DNA of 38,292 nucleotides from the IMG/VR virus record IMGVR_UViG_3300005262_000010, positions 1 to 38,292 of that record. The stretch is one strand, 5' to 3'. The stretch is from a virus. The first letter of the stretch is position 1. The number at the start of each line of letters is the position of its first letter. The position numbers were made by a program, and so were the translations under genes. Shown piece by piece: positions 31,891 through 38,280 of the stretch. The notes beneath the pieces are model-generated. The model did no database searches. It saw nothing but the letters and a program-made list of their open reading frames with translations, and was not told where the DNA came from.

Positions 31891-32486
31891 TGGCCCGGCT
31901 GGTTTCAACGATCCTTCAAAGCCTGATCGCCAAGCTTCCGACCGGCCTCGGCCTTGGCTTCAGAGGCGGCAATATCGACGTTGTGCTTGAGGCGGCCGCC
32001 ACGCCGATCGCCGACATCGAGGCCGGCGCCGAAGCGATGATGATCGAGGTCGATCCGCGCGCTGCCAACAACTTCCTTGCCGATTTCGAGCGTGTGCTTG
32101 GTCCCGATCCATGCGGCCGGGATCTCGGCGGGCTCTCGGTCGCCGATCGCCAGCGGCTTGCGCACCAGCGCTGGACCGCGACTGGCGGGCAGTCGATCCC
32201 CTATCTGATCCAGCTCGCCGCTAAGCTCGGCGTCACAATCACGATCGAGGAATTCTGGCCGTCGCGCACCGGCGTCTTGAGAACCGGCCAGCCGCTGCGG
32301 GCGGAGGGATGCCAGTTCGTCTTCCGCGTCCAAATTCCCGGACTCGTCACCGTCGTTAATTTCAAGGTGGGTGCGAGCAGAGCCGGTCAAAGCCTTGGCA
32401 GCTTCCAGGTGTCGTCGATCGAATGCGATCTGCGACGCGTGAAGCCTGCCCATACCCAAATCATTTTCGCCTATGGAGAGGCCTGA
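31890..32486 (+). CDS. baseplate wedge protein (Mu gp48/YmfQ-like)
   Basis: 198 residues from ATG 31890 (TTG 31887 possible). DPRAANNFLADFERVLGPDP and DRQRLAHQRWTATGGQSIPY followed by LGVTITIEEFWPSRTG match the YmfQ/DUF2313 family of Mu gp48. It attaches the tail fibre to the baseplate. Its stop overlaps the fibre ATG. Confidence 0.9.
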   Translation: MARLVSTILQSLIAKLPTGLGLGFRGGNIDVVLEAAATPIADIEAGAEAMMIEVDPRAANNFLADFERVLGPDPCGRDLGGLSVADRQRLAHQRWTATGGQSIPYLIQLAAKLGVTITIEEFWPSRTGVLRTGQPLRAEGCQFVFRVQIPGLVTVVNFKVGASRAGQSLGSFQVSSIECDLRRVKPAHTQIIFAYGEA

Positions 32487-33547
32487 TGGATCGCATTAAC
32501 GGTGCGGGAACGACAGACATTGGCGGCGGCCGGCGTGGCTTCCGTGACGAGAACCTTGGATCGGGCATCGAGGGAACCGAGGTAACCGCGCTGTGGGCCA
32601 ACATGCTCCAAGAGGAGATCATGGCAGTCATCGAGCAGGCGGGGTTTGTCGCTACCGAGGCGGACTGGACGCAACTCCTCCAGGCCATCCGCTCTCAAAA
32701 GTGGTCCTACCTTGCTGCTGCCGGCACGGCGAGCGCGATCGTCGTCGCGCCTGCACCGGCGTATTCGACACTTGCGTCGCTCGTAGGTGTCCCGCTGCGC
32801 ATCATGCCTTCGGCGGACAATGTCGGAGCGGTCACGCTTCAGGTCAACGCCCTGGCCGCCACGAGCGTCACTTGGAAAGGCCGGACGCTTTGGGATGGCG
32901 CAGTAAAGGCGGGCGTACCGATCACCGTGATTTACACCGGGACTCGCTTCGAAATCCTAGATCCGGCTCCCTTGGCTCCGGGCAAGCAGATCTACAGCGC
33001 TGCTGGATCTTATACGTTTGTCGTGCCCGCAGGCGTCTATGTGATCGATTACGCGGTTATCGGTGCTGGCGGCGCATCGGGCTATTCGACTAGCGGCTCA
33101 AACCACGGCGAGGGCGGCGGTGGCGGTGGTGGCGCATATGGCCGAATGGCGGTTACACCGGGGCAATCCATCGCTGTCGTCGTGGGCGCCGCCGGCACAC
33201 GATCAGGTACGGTCGGGAGTGCAGGCGGCACATCTTCATTCGGCGGGATCAGTGCGACAGGGGGCGGCGCGACGTCCACTGGCTCCCCGGGAAATGGTGG
33301 GTTGGGCTCTGGCGGTGACATCAACTTCGCAGGTGAAGGCGGCCTGAATGGCGACTCCACGGCCAATCAGTACGCCGGTATCGGTGGTGATGCAGGTGGC
33401 CCGATGGGCGGGCGTGGCGCGCAATCGCAAGTCGGCGGCACATGGCCGGGCGGCGGCGGTTGGAGCGTCTGGAATACGGCTGCGACCACGTACAGCGAGG
33501 GGGCTCCTGCAGCGGGTGGCGTGATCTTGCGTTGGGGAGAAAAGTGA
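32486..33547 (+). CDS. tail fibre with glycine-rich receptor-binding domain
   Basis: 353 residues from ATG 32486; the longer in-frame start at 32423 is inside gp48. The N-terminus (DRINGAGTTDIGGGRRGFRD, VTALWANMLQEEIMAVIEQA) is the conserved fibre attachment region. A beta-rich middle follows, and residues about 190-353 are dominated by glycine (GEGGGGGGGAYGRM, GNGGLGSGGDINFAGEGG), like the polyglycine-sandwich tips of some phage adhesins. It probably binds the host receptor. Its stop overlaps the next gene. Confidence 0.85.
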   Translation: MDRINGAGTTDIGGGRRGFRDENLGSGIEGTEVTALWANMLQEEIMAVIEQAGFVATEADWTQLLQAIRSQKWSYLAAAGTASAIVVAPAPAYSTLASLVGVPLRIMPSADNVGAVTLQVNALAATSVTWKGRTLWDGAVKAGVPITVIYTGTRFEILDPAPLAPGKQIYSAAGSYTFVVPAGVYVIDYAVIGAGGASGYSTSGSNHGEGGGGGGGAYGRMAVTPGQSIAVVVGAAGTRSGTVGSAGGTSSFGGISATGGGATSTGSPGNGGLGSGGDINFAGEGGLNGDSTANQYAGIGGDAGGPMGGRGAQSQVGGTWPGGGGWSVWNTAATTYSEGAPAAGGVILRWGEK

Positions 33548-34119
33548 TGCCGAAGTATGTGAGAGTAGTAGACGAGATTGTCGTTGAGATCATTCCCCAA
33601 TTGCCGGAGGGGTTCTCTCTAGAAGAGGTGTTTCACGCCGACGTGGCCGCCCAGATCCAGTTGGCCGCTGACGACATCGGGACTGGCTGGACCTGGAACG
33701 GAACGGAATTCTCCGCTCCGGTTGGGCCATCCCTGGATGATGTGAAGGCCGCGAGAATCGGCGTCATCCTCACAGCGGCGTGTGCGACGGCGATCGTCGG
33801 GGGGTATCAGTCCTCGGCCCTTGGCGCTGCTCACCTTTATCCGTGCAGCATTACCGATCAGATCAACATGATGGGTAGCGTTACGGCGAGCCTTTTGCCT
33901 GACCTGCCGGGCGATTGGACAACGCCGTTTTGGTGCAAGGACGAAGCTTCAGGTCAGTGGGCCTTCCGCCCGCACAATGCGACGCAAATTCAGCAAGCCG
34001 GCGCCGACGGCAAGGCGCATATCGTCGAGTGCCAAGCGAGACTTGAGCAACTCAGTGCGCAGGTGATGGCCGCCGCCTCGGCCGAGGCTATCAGGGCGAT
34101 CGTCTGGGAGACTGAATAG
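33547..34119 (+). CDS. DUF4376 tail fibre assembly-like protein
   Basis: 190 residues; ATG overlaps the fibre stop. An N-terminal region (MPKYVRVVDEIVVEI) with TGWTWNGTEFSAP resembles the start of tail-fibre assembly chaperones. The part at about 65-190 is a DUF4376 domain (ARIGVILTAACATAIVGGYQ, YPCSITDQINMMGSV, PFWCKDEASGQWAFRPHNAT). Likely helps fold or attach the fibre, or is a fibre tip itself. Confidence 0.8.
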   Translation: MPKYVRVVDEIVVEIIPQLPEGFSLEEVFHADVAAQIQLAADDIGTGWTWNGTEFSAPVGPSLDDVKAARIGVILTAACATAIVGGYQSSALGAAHLYPCSITDQINMMGSVTASLLPDLPGDWTTPFWCKDEASGQWAFRPHNATQIQQAGADGKAHIVECQARLEQLSAQVMAAASAEAIRAIVWETE

Positions 34120-34121
34120 TC

Positions 34122-35741
34122 ATGGCAGTATCCCCTATCCGCCGCCCGTCGCTGGTCAGCTATTCCGATCGCCCGATTTCGCGGGGCATCGTCACGCCCG
34201 GCAGCGCCTTCGGGCCAATCCCGAGCGATCCAGGGCCGTACATGCTTGGCTCGACGCGCAACAGGGCGCTGTCCGGGTTTGGGCCGGCAAACCTCTATGT
34301 CGCGCCTGATGGCCTCAATGTCTTTGCGCCGTTGCTGAAGTTCGGCACGCTTTGGCCGACCGATGAAGGCGTATTCCGCTTTGCCGGTTCGCAATATACC
34401 GAAGGCAGCCTTGCTCCTCAGGAGACCACGTTCGCCAGCGCCGCCATGACTATCCACATGGTGCTGCTGATCTACAAAGGCCAGGTGTTTTCCTGTGACT
34501 TCTCCGGATTGCCGGGCAGCTCGGTGGGGATCGGCGCGGCGGGTGTTTGGGCGCATATCAAGCTGCCGATCATCCTGCCCGCAAAGAGCGTTTATAGTCT
34601 CGTCCCGATCTACTCGGTTCCTGTCGGCGCGACGGTTCTCGGTCAATACCGCATCCAGCGCCATCGCGGCGAAAAGGTGTGGCAGGGTGCAAACGTCGAT
34701 GCCGTCTTGACGCAATTGGCAGCCGACGCCCCATCGTCGGCCGCTTTCCAGCTCGGCTATAATTCCGTCTCGAATTGGAACGCCAGCCCGCCCGGACAGA
34801 ACTTGGCTTATGGTCCCGACCTGATCGCCTGGAAGCGATGGGATGGCCGCCGTGTCGTGTGCGGCGTCTTGGACAGCCTGTCGGACCGGCAGGAGCTGGC
34901 GGCGTCGGCAGACGAGTGGGGCAATTTCGGTTTTGCGCCACGCCTCTTTGACAGTTGGGGCTTCGGCTTCTTCAACGTCGGATGCCCAGGCTCGAAGGCG
35001 GCGCAGACGCTCACGACCAACGCCATGAAGATCTGGCAGGGCCTCGACGAACTGTCCGCCATGAACCCGAATGGCAAACGGCCTTACACCCATTATTTCC
35101 AGCAGATGGGCCGCAACGACAACAACACCGTAGCTTCGACTTGGCTCACACCCATCCGAAATTTGAATACGCGGTTGCGGACACGTGACCCTGCCATTCC
35201 CATCATCGGCGCGACGATTCCAGCAACGGCCTCGACGACGGATCGGTATCAGACGGCCGCCGGACAGACGCTTTCAGCCACCTGGAGCACCGTGCTGGCG
35301 ACCGTGAATGCTTCGATCCTTGCCGGCAACAACGGCACGACCGACAACGCCATCGACTTGACCGCCTATCGGATGGCGGCTGACGGCAAATTCCGGCCTG
35401 GCAACGAACACCTGAAGGGCACCGTCGCGGTATCGACCGGCAACGGCGTCGACCCCACCACCACGCTGATTGTGGATTTCAAGCCGAGCCTCGGCCAGCA
35501 ATACACCATCGATATCAGCGGTGGAGCGGGCACGACGTTCACAGGTGCGGTTTGCATCGACGTTTCCGGCACCGGCCCATGGACACTGACGCGCATGGAG
35601 ACGTCCACCACCATATTCCCGGTAGGCTCGCTCCTCTACGAGCAACCTTCGCCGGACGGGACGCACTACAACAAGGAATACAACATTCAATCTGTCGCCA
35701 ATGTCCCGGCTTCCGAGGCGGCAAAGTTCGTGATGGCCTGA
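34122..35741 (+). CDS. large tail protein with SGNH/GDSL-hydrolase signature blocks
   Basis: 539 residues, with an N-terminal beta-rich attachment part. From about residue 245 it carries spaced blocks of SGNH hydrolases: VLDSLSDR (D251-S252, the Ser block), NVGCPGSKA (N285-G287), MGRNDN (G330-N332-D333) and SPDGTHYN (D512, H515). Together these give the Ser, Gly, Asn and Asp-His set. A beta-sandwich-like insertion lies at about 420-505. Such enzymes deacylate polysaccharides; in a tail protein it may trim acetyl groups from capsule, LPS or exopolysaccharide at the receptor. Catalytic reading is inference; the block order is seen. Confidence 0.75.
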   Translation: MAVSPIRRPSLVSYSDRPISRGIVTPGSAFGPIPSDPGPYMLGSTRNRALSGFGPANLYVAPDGLNVFAPLLKFGTLWPTDEGVFRFAGSQYTEGSLAPQETTFASAAMTIHMVLLIYKGQVFSCDFSGLPGSSVGIGAAGVWAHIKLPIILPAKSVYSLVPIYSVPVGATVLGQYRIQRHRGEKVWQGANVDAVLTQLAADAPSSAAFQLGYNSVSNWNASPPGQNLAYGPDLIAWKRWDGRRVVCGVLDSLSDRQELAASADEWGNFGFAPRLFDSWGFGFFNVGCPGSKAAQTLTTNAMKIWQGLDELSAMNPNGKRPYTHYFQQMGRNDNNTVASTWLTPIRNLNTRLRTRDPAIPIIGATIPATASTTDRYQTAAGQTLSATWSTVLATVNASILAGNNGTTDNAIDLTAYRMAADGKFRPGNEHLKGTVAVSTGNGVDPTTTLIVDFKPSLGQQYTIDISGGAGTTFTGAVCIDVSGTGPWTLTRMETSTTIFPVGSLLYEQPSPDGTHYNKEYNIQSVANVPASEAAKFVMA

Positions 35742-35891: not shown

Positions 35892-36695
35892 ATGGTGAAT
35901 GATGAAACGTGGCGGGAAGTCCCCAACACCCAGCCGCCGGCCGCTTGGATAGGCGGTAAGCGCTCACTCGCTCCTCGCCTAGTGAAGGCGATCGCGGCCA
36001 TCCCGCATCAGCTCTACGCGGAACCTTTCGTCGGGATGGGGGGTGTTTTCTTCAGGCGCACGAAGGTGCCGAGAAGCGAGGTAATCAACGATCGCAACGG
36101 AGAAGTAACCAACCTCTTTCGCATTCTGCAGCGGCACTATCCGCAATTTATGGACACCCTCAAGTTCCAGATCACAAGCAGACGCGAATTTGAAAGGTTG
36201 AAGGCTTGCGATCCCGCCACACTCACCGACCTCGAACGGGCAGCTCGATTCATCTATCTGCAAAAGCTGGCCTTCGGTGGCAAAGTCTCGGGACAGAATT
36301 TCGGGGTCAATGCGACAGGCGGTGCTCGCTTCAACCTGAACCGGTTGGCTCCGCTCCTGGAGGATGTGCATGAACGCCTGGCAGGCGTGGTGATCGAGAA
36401 TTTGGACTGGCTGAAATTCGTCGATCGCTATGATCGGCCGGGGACGTTGTTCTATCTCGATCCGCCGTATTTCGGGAACGAGGGCGATTACGGAAAGGCG
36501 CTTTTCGGCCGCGACCAGTTCGAAGCCATGTCGGCTCGCTTACGTCAGTTGAAAGGGCGTTTCATTCTCTCGATAAACGATGTGCCGGAGATCCGCAGGC
36601 TATTTGATGGGTGTCTAATTCATCCTGTCGAATTGACCTATTCGGTGAGCGGCGGAAACGGTACCAATGCAAAAGAATTGGTCATCACGGGCTAA
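35892..36695 (+). CDS. D12-class DNA adenine-N6 methyltransferase
   Basis: 267 residues. Motif X WIGGKRSLAPRL (19-30), motif I YAEPFVGMGGVFF (42-54), and catalytic motif IV DPPY at 190-193 (FYLDPPYFGNEGDYG) give the D12/Dam class that methylates adenine N6 using S-adenosylmethionine. No restriction enzyme gene is adjacent, so it is a solitary methyltransferase, probably protecting phage DNA from host restriction. It occupies the right-end place where Mu carries mom. It has a weak ribosome site. Confidence 0.93.
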   Translation: MVNDETWREVPNTQPPAAWIGGKRSLAPRLVKAIAAIPHQLYAEPFVGMGGVFFRRTKVPRSEVINDRNGEVTNLFRILQRHYPQFMDTLKFQITSRREFERLKACDPATLTDLERAARFIYLQKLAFGGKVSGQNFGVNATGGARFNLNRLAPLLEDVHERLAGVVIENLDWLKFVDRYDRPGTLFYLDPPYFGNEGDYGKALFGRDQFEAMSARLRQLKGRFILSINDVPEIRRLFDGCLIHPVELTYSVSGGNGTNAKELVITG

Positions 36696-37211: not shown

Positions 37212-38063
37212 ATGGCTGCCCACCATTTTGTACCTCAATTGCTCTTGAGACGGTTCTCGCACGACGGAGTCCATCTTAATTTGATGGAAAAAGGCACTCG
37301 TCGCATCTTTGGGGGCACCGTAGCAAAATCCTTTTCGCTACGTGACTTCCACCGAATCGTCCCAGACGGATTGCCTCATTTCGATGATCTTGCGGCAGAC
37401 AAGCGTGTCCCTGATTTGGAACAATTGCTCGATAGATCATTTGAGACACCCGCGGGAGCTATCATCAAGAATATCGTTCAGACGGAACGCCTCGATTTGC
37501 AGCCCGAGCAACGTTTCTATCTCGTGGCATTCGTCGTGTTGCAGTGGTATCGAACGCCTGGGAGGTTTTTTAAGCAGCAGGAGGACATGCGCAAGCTCAT
37601 TCCGACATTGCCTAGCCCCAAGAACAAGATGCATCCTCTTGGGAAGGCGGGTGATGGCGAAGACCCTTTGAGGGATATGAGGTTGTTCGCGATGCCGATG
37701 GAAGTCTTCGATCTGGCCTTCGTCCTGCAGCGCGCCGATCTTTATCTCCATAAGCTGCATGAAAGCGAGTTCTTATTGGGGGATGATCCGGTTTCCGTGA
37801 TGAATCCAACCATACGACTTGCTTCGAACGGAGTAGCGCCTTTTACAATCACGGCACGGGGTTCCGAAGTCTTTCTGCCAATATCGCCTCAATTCGGTAT
37901 TTATCTTCAAACGGGGATGGACGCGAAGAGGGGGGATATCGGCAGAACAATAAGCGAGCCAATTACCTTGGATGCACGCCATAGAGCGCGTTTAAATCAG
38001 CTTCAGTTCAAGAATGCATTACTATACGTGACGTCCCAAAGTGGGGACTTTCCCGACATCTAG
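37212..38063 (+). CDS. DUF4238 protein
   Basis: 283 residues. AAHHFVPQLLLRRFS at the N-terminus, FYLVAFVVLQWYRTP at 102-116 and LLGDDPV at 188-194 are hallmark blocks of DUF4238. The conserved His, Arg, Asp and Asp suggest an enzyme, but no activity is established to my knowledge. The gene is the last before the prophage right end, in lower-GC sequence with its own spacing (68 bases after the previous stop), so it is cargo. A role in exclusion of other phages is possible but unproven. Confidence 0.8.
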   Translation: MAAHHFVPQLLLRRFSHDGVHLNLMEKGTRRIFGGTVAKSFSLRDFHRIVPDGLPHFDDLAADKRVPDLEQLLDRSFETPAGAIIKNIVQTERLDLQPEQRFYLVAFVVLQWYRTPGRFFKQQEDMRKLIPTLPSPKNKMHPLGKAGDGEDPLRDMRLFAMPMEVFDLAFVLQRADLYLHKLHESEFLLGDDPVSVMNPTIRLASNGVAPFTITARGSEVFLPISPQFGIYLQTGMDAKRGDIGRTISEPITLDARHRARLNQLQFKNALLYVTSQSGDFPDI

Positions 38064-38204: not shown

Positions 38205-38280
38205 TGGTGGGCCCGGAGGGACTCGAACCCCCAACCAAGCGGTTATGAGCCGCCGGCTCTAACCATTGAGCTACAGGCCC
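38205..38280 (-). tRNA. tRNA-Ile2(CAT) (lysidine-type), host gene
   Basis: A full 76-base cloverleaf with encoded CCA (38205-38207) and anticodon CAT at 38245-38247 (tRNA positions 34-36). Acceptor GGGCCTG pairs with CGGGCCC; the D arm, the anticodon arm (GGCGGCTCATAACCGCT) and the T arm GGTTCGAGTCC are intact. The anticodon stem and the following TTGGT resemble E. coli ileX rather than elongator tRNA-Met, so C34 is probably changed to lysidine to read AUA. Software may call it Met. Its 3' end is 32 bases from the prophage end; the T-rich stretch between (TATTTTTCC on the minus strand) may be its terminator. Confidence 0.9.

Follow-up and report, generated by a model that had tools for sequence, protein, structure and literature searches.

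A predicted SGNH-type esterase of host surface polysaccharide encoded next to the tail fibre genes of a Mu-like transposable phage

The window, that is, the whole stretch of 38,292 bases that was analysed (IMG/VR virus record IMGVR_UViG_3300005262_000010), has the gene content and layout of a Mu-like transposable myophage, with genes for a ParB-like protein, a transposase, a transposition protein, a terminase, a portal protein, a minor head protein, a head maturation protease, a tail sheath, a tape measure protein, and a Mu gp48 baseplate protein. The gene under study encodes an SGNH-type esterase and lies between a gene for a DUF4376 tail-fibre-associated protein, itself preceded by a tail fibre gene whose true start codon may be further in, and a gene for a D12-class adenine methyltransferase (Table 1). 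In a PHROG profile search with the window protein, the match to phrog_8480 (E = 1.1e-60) extended over residues 40-536 and profile positions 49-526 of 528. The preliminary description of this DNA had confined the feature to 34854-35680, which holds for the SGNH part, although the feature is the whole gene. After the phage genes, the window encodes a DUF4238 protein (37212-38063; PF14022, E = 4.2e-27), no homologue of which was present in the compared stretches of related Mu-like prophages, and at the right edge, a minus-strand tRNA-Met (38205-38280) that is probably host flank.

Table 1. Positions in the window of the esterase gene, its neighbours, and the parts of its product
Feature	Coordinates	Strand	Basis
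SGNH-type esterase gene, 539 aa, PHROG 8480	34122..35741	+	open frame and translation; phrog_8480 profile match
Tail fibre, C-terminal domain rich in glycine, second gene upstream of esterase	32423..33547	+	phrog_863 8.8e-23, further fibre families; PF21722 1.6e-7
DUF4376 tail-fibre-associated protein, directly upstream of esterase	33550..34119	+	PF14301 1.2e-9; phrog_1348 'tail fiber protein' 3.7e-27
D12-class adenine methyltransferase, directly downstream of esterase, conserved flank of variable locus	35892..36695	+	PF02086 8.4e-24
Residues 1-35, N-terminal tail, mostly disordered, unconserved	34122..34226	+	pLDDT <50 for 1-31; mean conservation 0.19
Residues 36-233, CBM-like beta domain and linker	34227..34820	+	model strands; 7toj match; conservation
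Residues 234-539, SGNH catalytic domain, interrupted by beta insertion	34821..35738	+	model; Foldseek and VIA-align 2
Block I, L250-D251-S252-L253, predicted nucleophile S252	34869..34880	+	D251, S252 130/130
R256, conserved Arg 4 or 5 residues past Ser	34887..34889	+	R in 128/130
Block II, G287-C288-P289-G290	34980..34991	+	P289 130/130, G290 126/130
Block III, N332-D333, predicted oxyanion Asn	35115..35120	+	130/130
Residues 431-507, six-stranded beta barrel inserted between blocks III and V	35412..35642	+	strands in full model and in stretch folded alone
Block V, D512-G-T-H515, predicted catalytic acid and base	35655..35666	+	H515 127/127 ungapped rows; D or E at 512 in 107/127

Translation of the gene placed the four SGNH motifs exactly where the preliminary description had reported them, once each and in the correct order (VLDSLSDR from residue 249, NVGCPGSKA from 285, GRND from 330, and DGTH from 512), and LDS, within LDSL, does replace the usual GDS; the codons of S252, N332, D512, and H515 are at 34875-34877, 35115-35117, 35655-35657, and 35664-35666, respectively. 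A loose ordered SGNH pattern, drawn up after the protein had been seen, was found in 0 of 20,000 shuffles of the esterase protein, and conservation is a stronger test of the signature than such shuffling. In a family alignment of 130 distinct sequences, from which four duplicates and six short or cut ORFs were removed, D251, S252, P289, N332, and D333 are invariant, likewise W240-D241-G242-R243 and E184, and H515 is kept in every one of the 127 rows that reach that position, the other three having a gap. The arginine represented by R256 follows the serine at an offset of five residues in 71 rows and four in 57. Comparison with the two relatives whose esterases are 81% identical to that of the window (L001 and L107) gave dN of 0.118 and 0.122 and dS of 0.817 and 0.837, i.e., purifying selection. 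The protein is one that selection has maintained together with its predicted catalytic residues.

The glycine of the oxyanion hole had been assigned to G287, an assignment that the alignment shifts to G290 as the better candidate: position 287 is Gly in 118 and Ala in 12 of the 130 sequences, whereas position 290 is Gly in 126 and Ser in four. Block II of PbeAcXE is reported as GIGG at 226-229, with acetate contacting Gly229 (Gly228 in another section of the source) (PMC9105624), and by analogy the oxyanion amide is most likely that of G290, the last Gly of G-x-P-G, aligned with this GIGG. Position 512 is Asp in 100 sequences, Glu in seven, Ser in 19, and Gly in one, with three gaps; the presence of Ser or Gly instead of an acid in 20 of 127 relatives counts against the catalytic reading. 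The Asp-to-Ser change, seen in 19 of the 127 His-bearing sequences (e.g., L068, L105, and L139), may reflect a Ser-His dyad or a relocated acid.

Relatives were encoded in 70 of 50,697 phage records, all from Rhizobium phages, in one of 72,556 plasmid records, in 105 of 141 pattern-matching IMG/VR stretches (80 of which were kept), and in 40 of 77 for GTDB genomes, by record title 31 Rhizobium, four Sphingomonas, two Caulobacter, two Agrobacterium, and one Rhizobiales. Outside the 81% relatives, identity to the window protein is 26-39%. All 22 members of a smaller alignment (A1) match PHROG 8480, and the family already bears the name 'lysophospholipase L1-like esterase' in both PHROGs (as PHROG 8480) and RefSeq, so that the gene has been annotated before; within PHROG 8480, the window clade sits on a long branch, and the PHROG function is a name, not a test. 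The window protein had no Pfam match at E ≤ 10 and did not reach the curated cut-off of PF13472 (Lipase_GDSL_2), which seven of the 22 relatives match at E ≤ 1 (best 9.3e-6); NCBIfam returned nothing for it, and searches of the PDB by sequence with the family profiles recovered no SGNH chain, giving weak unrelated matches or none. The NCBIfam matches and non-GDSL Pfam matches of other A1 members were chance-like and were rejected. Among the open-access papers covered by the search, no title or abstract beginning described this Rhizobium phage family as an esterase, and the terms esterase, lipase, and GDSL do not appear in PMC10783043.

The AlphaFold2 model of the window protein, built from 60 rows comprising the window and related-locus sequences, has a mean pLDDT of 85.4 and a pTM of 0.85, with a mean pLDDT of 64 across the active-site stretch 251-260. 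No hydrophobic signal segment occurs in the first 60 residues (highest 15-residue Kyte-Doolittle mean, 0.74), and residues 1-35 are a possible virion-attachment peptide. Residues 36-233, missing from the preliminary description, are modelled as a conserved CBM-like domain in which R177, Q179, R182, and E184 are invariant or near-invariant. The remainder adopts an alpha/beta/alpha fold with the serine after strand 1 (strand 245-250, then S252). Foldseek against the PDB placed PbeAcXE first (7tog, E = 1.4e-13), followed by 7toh, the polyvinyl alcohol esterase 9kr0, and CspAcXE (7toj), and after these acetyl-xylan and polyvinyl alcohol esterases by CE2 enzymes, Ape1, and others. With VIA-align 2, 7toj aligned over model residues 38-539 (Z 22.9, rmsd 3.4, 326 of 361 residues), 9kr0 at Z 22.8, and 7toh at Z 22.7; full-length matches to CspAcXE, PbeAcXE, and the polyvinyl alcohol esterase span Z 22.6-22.9, rmsd 3.4-3.5, and 326-346 aligned residues, followed at a distance by the next chain (Z 12.4) and by single SGNH domains (Z ∼10.4-12). 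Because the alignments to 7toj, 9kr0, and 7toh are full-length, the structural match covers the N-terminal beta domain, the counterpart of which in acetyl-xylan esterases has been termed CBM-like (PMC9105624).

Single-domain SGNH enzymes (TesA, AlinE4, and CrmE10) aligned at Z 10.6-11 over model residues 239-538. For E. coli TesA (e.g., 1u8u), model 243-536 corresponds to 1-178, and the alignment ends agree with Ser10, Asp154, and His157 of that enzyme. In CrmE10 (7c29; 239-511 on 16-177), S252 falls on Ser29 if there is no gap between the alignment end and the motif, and in AlinE4 (7c82; 239 on chain residue 0 and 513 on 163) S252 would fall on Ser13 and D512 on Asp162, both reported to belong to the AlinE4 triad (PMC7294632), provided that no gap lies near the alignment ends. 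For 7tog and 7toj, an end offset of 152 would place His366 of these enzymes opposite residue 518, three residues away from H515, and a short indel must therefore be present near the C-terminus. By these end-points against SGNH enzymes, the model does not refute the Ser-His pairing that the preliminary description had proposed to look for by structure prediction, and the assignment to the SGNH hydrolases is upheld by both the conservation (n = 130) and the predicted fold. Among predicted viral structures, the best matches outside close kin include proteins of Sinorhizobium phage phiN3, Xanthomonas phages Xp15 and XAJ2, and Gordonia phage Mcklovin; thus, the architecture extends beyond Rhizobium phages, though the sequence family does not.

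A beta-rich insertion ahead of the last block had also been described, and it is real, with six model strands between residues 431 and 507. The N332-H515 spacing is long in all 127 His-bearing rows (180-272 residues, median 192), making the additional stretch a trait of the family; the same spacing in PbeAcXE is ∼100. Folded alone (94 residues, 58 rows), the insertion reached a pLDDT of 83.8 and a pTM of 0.70 and had no Foldseek match at E ≤ 0.001, and VIA aligned it with phage tail tube, tailspike, capsule lyase, and tail-tip proteins at Z 8.1-10.4 (a phage tail tube being best at 10.4) and, further down, with glycosidase and ATP-synthase barrels. As modelled, it appears to be a small beta barrel of the kind found in phage tails, nothing more specific. 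Since the barrel is located in the loop carrying D512 and H515, the counterpart of loop 5, which is reported to shape the PbeAcXE active site (PMC9105624), a role in specificity may fairly be supposed by analogy. A second, different beta-rich insertion of ∼70 residues was seen in the SGNH domain of five relatives (L017, L019, L021, L022, and L023), after the position of residue 369 of the window protein in alignment A1.

The FjoAcXE-type enzymes, an unclassified CE family including PbeAcXE (7tog/7toh) and CspAcXE (7toj), share with the window protein the N-terminal CBM-like and SGNH architecture (Z 22.7-22.9) and a conserved Arg shortly past the Ser. However, where they have GNSI at the serine, the window family has xDS[LI], with Asp before Ser in 130/130 sequences, the phage proteins carry ∼80 or more extra residues between blocks III and V, and identity is 14-16%; because the GNSI signature is absent and there is no Pfam match, the protein was not filed as FjoAcXE-type. 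The polyvinyl alcohol esterase (9kr0, 9kr1, and 9kqz) has the same two-domain fold (Z 22.6-22.8, 15% identity), and is described as acting on a synthetic polymer, unlike the substrate proposed for the phage protein. CE2 esterases (2wao, 2waa, and 4xvh) also combine beta and SGNH domains, but their Foldseek matches were much weaker (E = 2.7e-7 for 2wao to 4.4e-6), and whereas catalysis in many CE2 enzymes relies on a Ser-His dyad, with block V contributing a Trp (PMC9487903), the window protein has D512 and no Trp beside it. The SGNH-type domain of Shigella phage Moo19 Gp82 (9d81) matches at Z 10.6 over 183 residues, in the catalytic domain only. Phages of enterobacteria and Acinetobacter are known to carry SGNH deacetylases. 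O-deacetylation of the host polysaccharide is reported for SGNH esterases in the receptor-binding proteins Possum gp66 (Pectobacterium) and G7C gp63.1 (E. coli) (PMC9569702), and pNP-acetate hydrolysis for two Klebsiella prophage fibre proteins with an SGNH esterase domain (PMC13123978); these are, however, fibres with a separate attachment part, and differ in host range and gene context. The structure of G7C gp63.1 was not among the matches listed by Foldseek and VIA-align 2, which excludes nothing. By prediction, the window protein works like the FjoAcXE-type esterases and like the G7C, Possum, and Klebsiella prophage deacetylases.

The surroundings of the gene are conserved among Mu-like prophages to a degree that the gene itself is not. 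In L035, L068, and L077, the D, V, W, 47, and 48 proteins are 81-89% and the methyltransferase 81-90% identical to those of the window, but the esterase only 36-37%; L069, read in part, follows the same pattern, L121 is apparently the same prophage as L068, and L027 repeats L001 and was left uncounted. Methyltransferase identity is 81-91% in six of seven Mu-like relatives and 68% in L107, whereas the fibre gene varies, with 24-55% alignable, and the DUF4376 protein retains 70-71% identity across 61-65% of its length. A tree of 73 esterases, supported by SH-aLRT only and subject to possible attraction between the long branches of L028 and of the window clade, placed the six Mu-like members to which this statement is limited in three positions: the window with L001 and L107, L035, and L068 with L077. 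L083, L116, and L053 share fewer than three of the compared genes and were left out of this statement. Block exchange between conserved neighbours is a pattern of host-surface proteins. Because the baseplate and methyltransferase genes on the flanks are conserved and the block between them is exchanged, the esterase varies like a host-surface specificity gene, and is a swap hot spot as expected for one.

The preliminary description had called the product a tail protein, and the gene does follow the tail fibre in the window; however, head genes adjoin it elsewhere. Of the 23 homologous phage loci with annotation, 10 (L003, L005, L006, L008, L010, L011, L012, L014, L015, and L018) have, by deposited annotation, a gene for a head structural function (portal, major capsid, head morphogenesis, or capsid assembly) no more than two genes from the esterase, a position that fits poorly with a simple tail role, and in other phage groups (Autographiviridae, Pootjesviridae, Kleczkowskaviridae, and others) the gene is found among structural genes. 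Among neighbouring ORFs, called roughly by a simple picker on the + strand only and searched against PHROG, 76 selected from 117 upstream included up to five matches to single tail fibre families, four and two to major head protein families, and up to four to endolysin families, and 50 of 108 downstream included seven to a methyltransferase family and two to an endolysin family. Gene order is weak evidence of virion location either way. Nine neighbouring proteins were chosen as annotated with a pectin-lyase fold or as polysaccharidases, or as adjoining such genes, and six of these matched right-handed beta-helix families at E ≤ 0.01, two above the Pfam cut-off; a deacetylase beside likely depolymerases fits an attack on polysaccharide.

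We infer an enzymatic activity, an acetyl leaving group, an EPS or O-antigen substrate, and a virion location, and consider it probable that the gene product is a virion-borne esterase of host surface polysaccharide, the ester most likely being O-acetyl. In the proposed mechanism, S252 would attack the ester, the oxyanion would be held by the N332 side chain together with the backbone NH groups of S252 and G290, and H515, with D512, would act as general base, after which water would release the acyl group. The CBM-like domain would pack on the SGNH domain as in FjoAcXE-type enzymes, such that the sugar would be read by both domains, while the barrel in the D512/H515 loop probably shapes specificity. 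Removal of acetyl would expose the receptor or else make the polysaccharide accessible to beta-helix depolymerases, which several relatives encode beside the gene. The EPS of R. leguminosarum VF39 is reported to carry O-acetyl on glucose and glucuronic acid (PMC11598398), pssR has been named as a putative acetyltransferase gene (PMC3233446), and relatives are present in phages with VF39 or VF39SM as recorded host (P10VF and B1VFA); the LPS O-antigen is an equally possible target.

A broader proposal, that PHROG 8480 is a class of alphaproteobacterial-phage carbohydrate esterases that read an acidic sugar and serve unrelated phages as a transferable head-or-tail module for unlocking the surface, is more speculative, and we regard it as rather unlikely. 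In PbeAcXE, glucuronic acid is described as bound by Arg139, Arg25/Asn26, and Arg193 from both domains (PMC9105624). By spacing, R256 is a possible counterpart of Arg193, and in the CBM-like domain the near-invariant R177 and R182 are where a counterpart of Arg139 might be sought. Under this proposal, R177/R182 and R256 would bind glucuronic acid and S252 would take off the acetyl group, which would match the acetylated glucuronic acid of rhizobial EPS, and the barrel in the catalytic loop would tune the enzyme to strain-specific acetylation.

The alternative to which we give most weight, though we favour it clearly less than the virion-borne surface esterase as such, is that the protein decorates the capsid, aiding virions through or onto acetylated slime, and was recruited in the window to the tail end of the operon. 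This would account for the head structural genes within two genes at 10 of 23 loci, and the unconserved N-terminal 35 residues are compatible with it, but in the window the gene directly follows the fibre and fibre-associated genes, and five of the 76 scanned upstream neighbours match tail-fibre families. Far less likely is a lipase or lysophospholipase for lysis or injection, for which the PHROG and RefSeq name, the endolysin neighbours (4/76 upstream and 2/50 downstream), and a lysis-module SGNH esterase in Xanthomonas phage PBR31 (PMC10975493) would speak. Against such a role, the window protein lacks a hydrophobic signal segment, whereas PBR31 gp40 has a signal peptide (PMC10975493), the enzymes that match the fold over its full length are active on acetylated polymers, conservation extends to the CBM-like domain, and the gene is also found among virion structural genes in other phages. 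As a functional claim, lysophospholipase was rejected and is treated as a database label only.

Loss of catalysis with retention of the fold, leaving a pure receptor-binding protein, is slighter still in our estimation: the gene does lie in the variable part of the fibre locus and the oxyanion Gly is replaced by Ser in 4/130 sequences, but no row that reaches the Ser, Asn, and His positions has lost these residues, despite strong divergence elsewhere. The lack of a hydrophobic signal segment and the placement among structural genes in Autographiviridae, Pootjesviridae, Kleczkowskaviridae, and others also argue against prophage cargo that alters the lysogen surface (superinfection exclusion) rather than acting in entry, which we consider the least likely of these explanations, even with the gene near the prophage end beside the methyltransferase and other non-structural genes.

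By prediction, 70 sequenced Rhizobium phage records, which differ greatly in build, share the chemistry of the enterobacterial and Acinetobacter phage deacetylases, and the architecture concerned has so far been matched to bacterial acetyl-xylan esterases and the polyvinyl alcohol esterase. If the activity holds true, the role of EPS acetylation in rhizobium-phage specificity becomes testable, a tool for trimming acetyl from rhizobial EPS becomes available, and the misleading database name (lysophospholipase) can be replaced.

Several members of the family stand out individually. Rhizobium phage RHph_Y65 encodes a second SGNH/GDSL hydrolase of 425 residues directly upstream of its PHROG 8480 member (L017:1629-2906), which matches PF13472 above the cut-off. 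In one IMG/VR stretch (L095:5908-10032), the esterase gene is interrupted by a two-gene insertion with ORFs of 503 and 245 residues, which we take, by eye, to resemble an IS21-type istA/istB pair. The Rhizobium beringeri plasmid pRlX6 (L026:2368-5241) carries a PHROG 8480 member over two annotated genes together with a major capsid gene, and because of this combination it looks like a phage-plasmid or the remnant of one.
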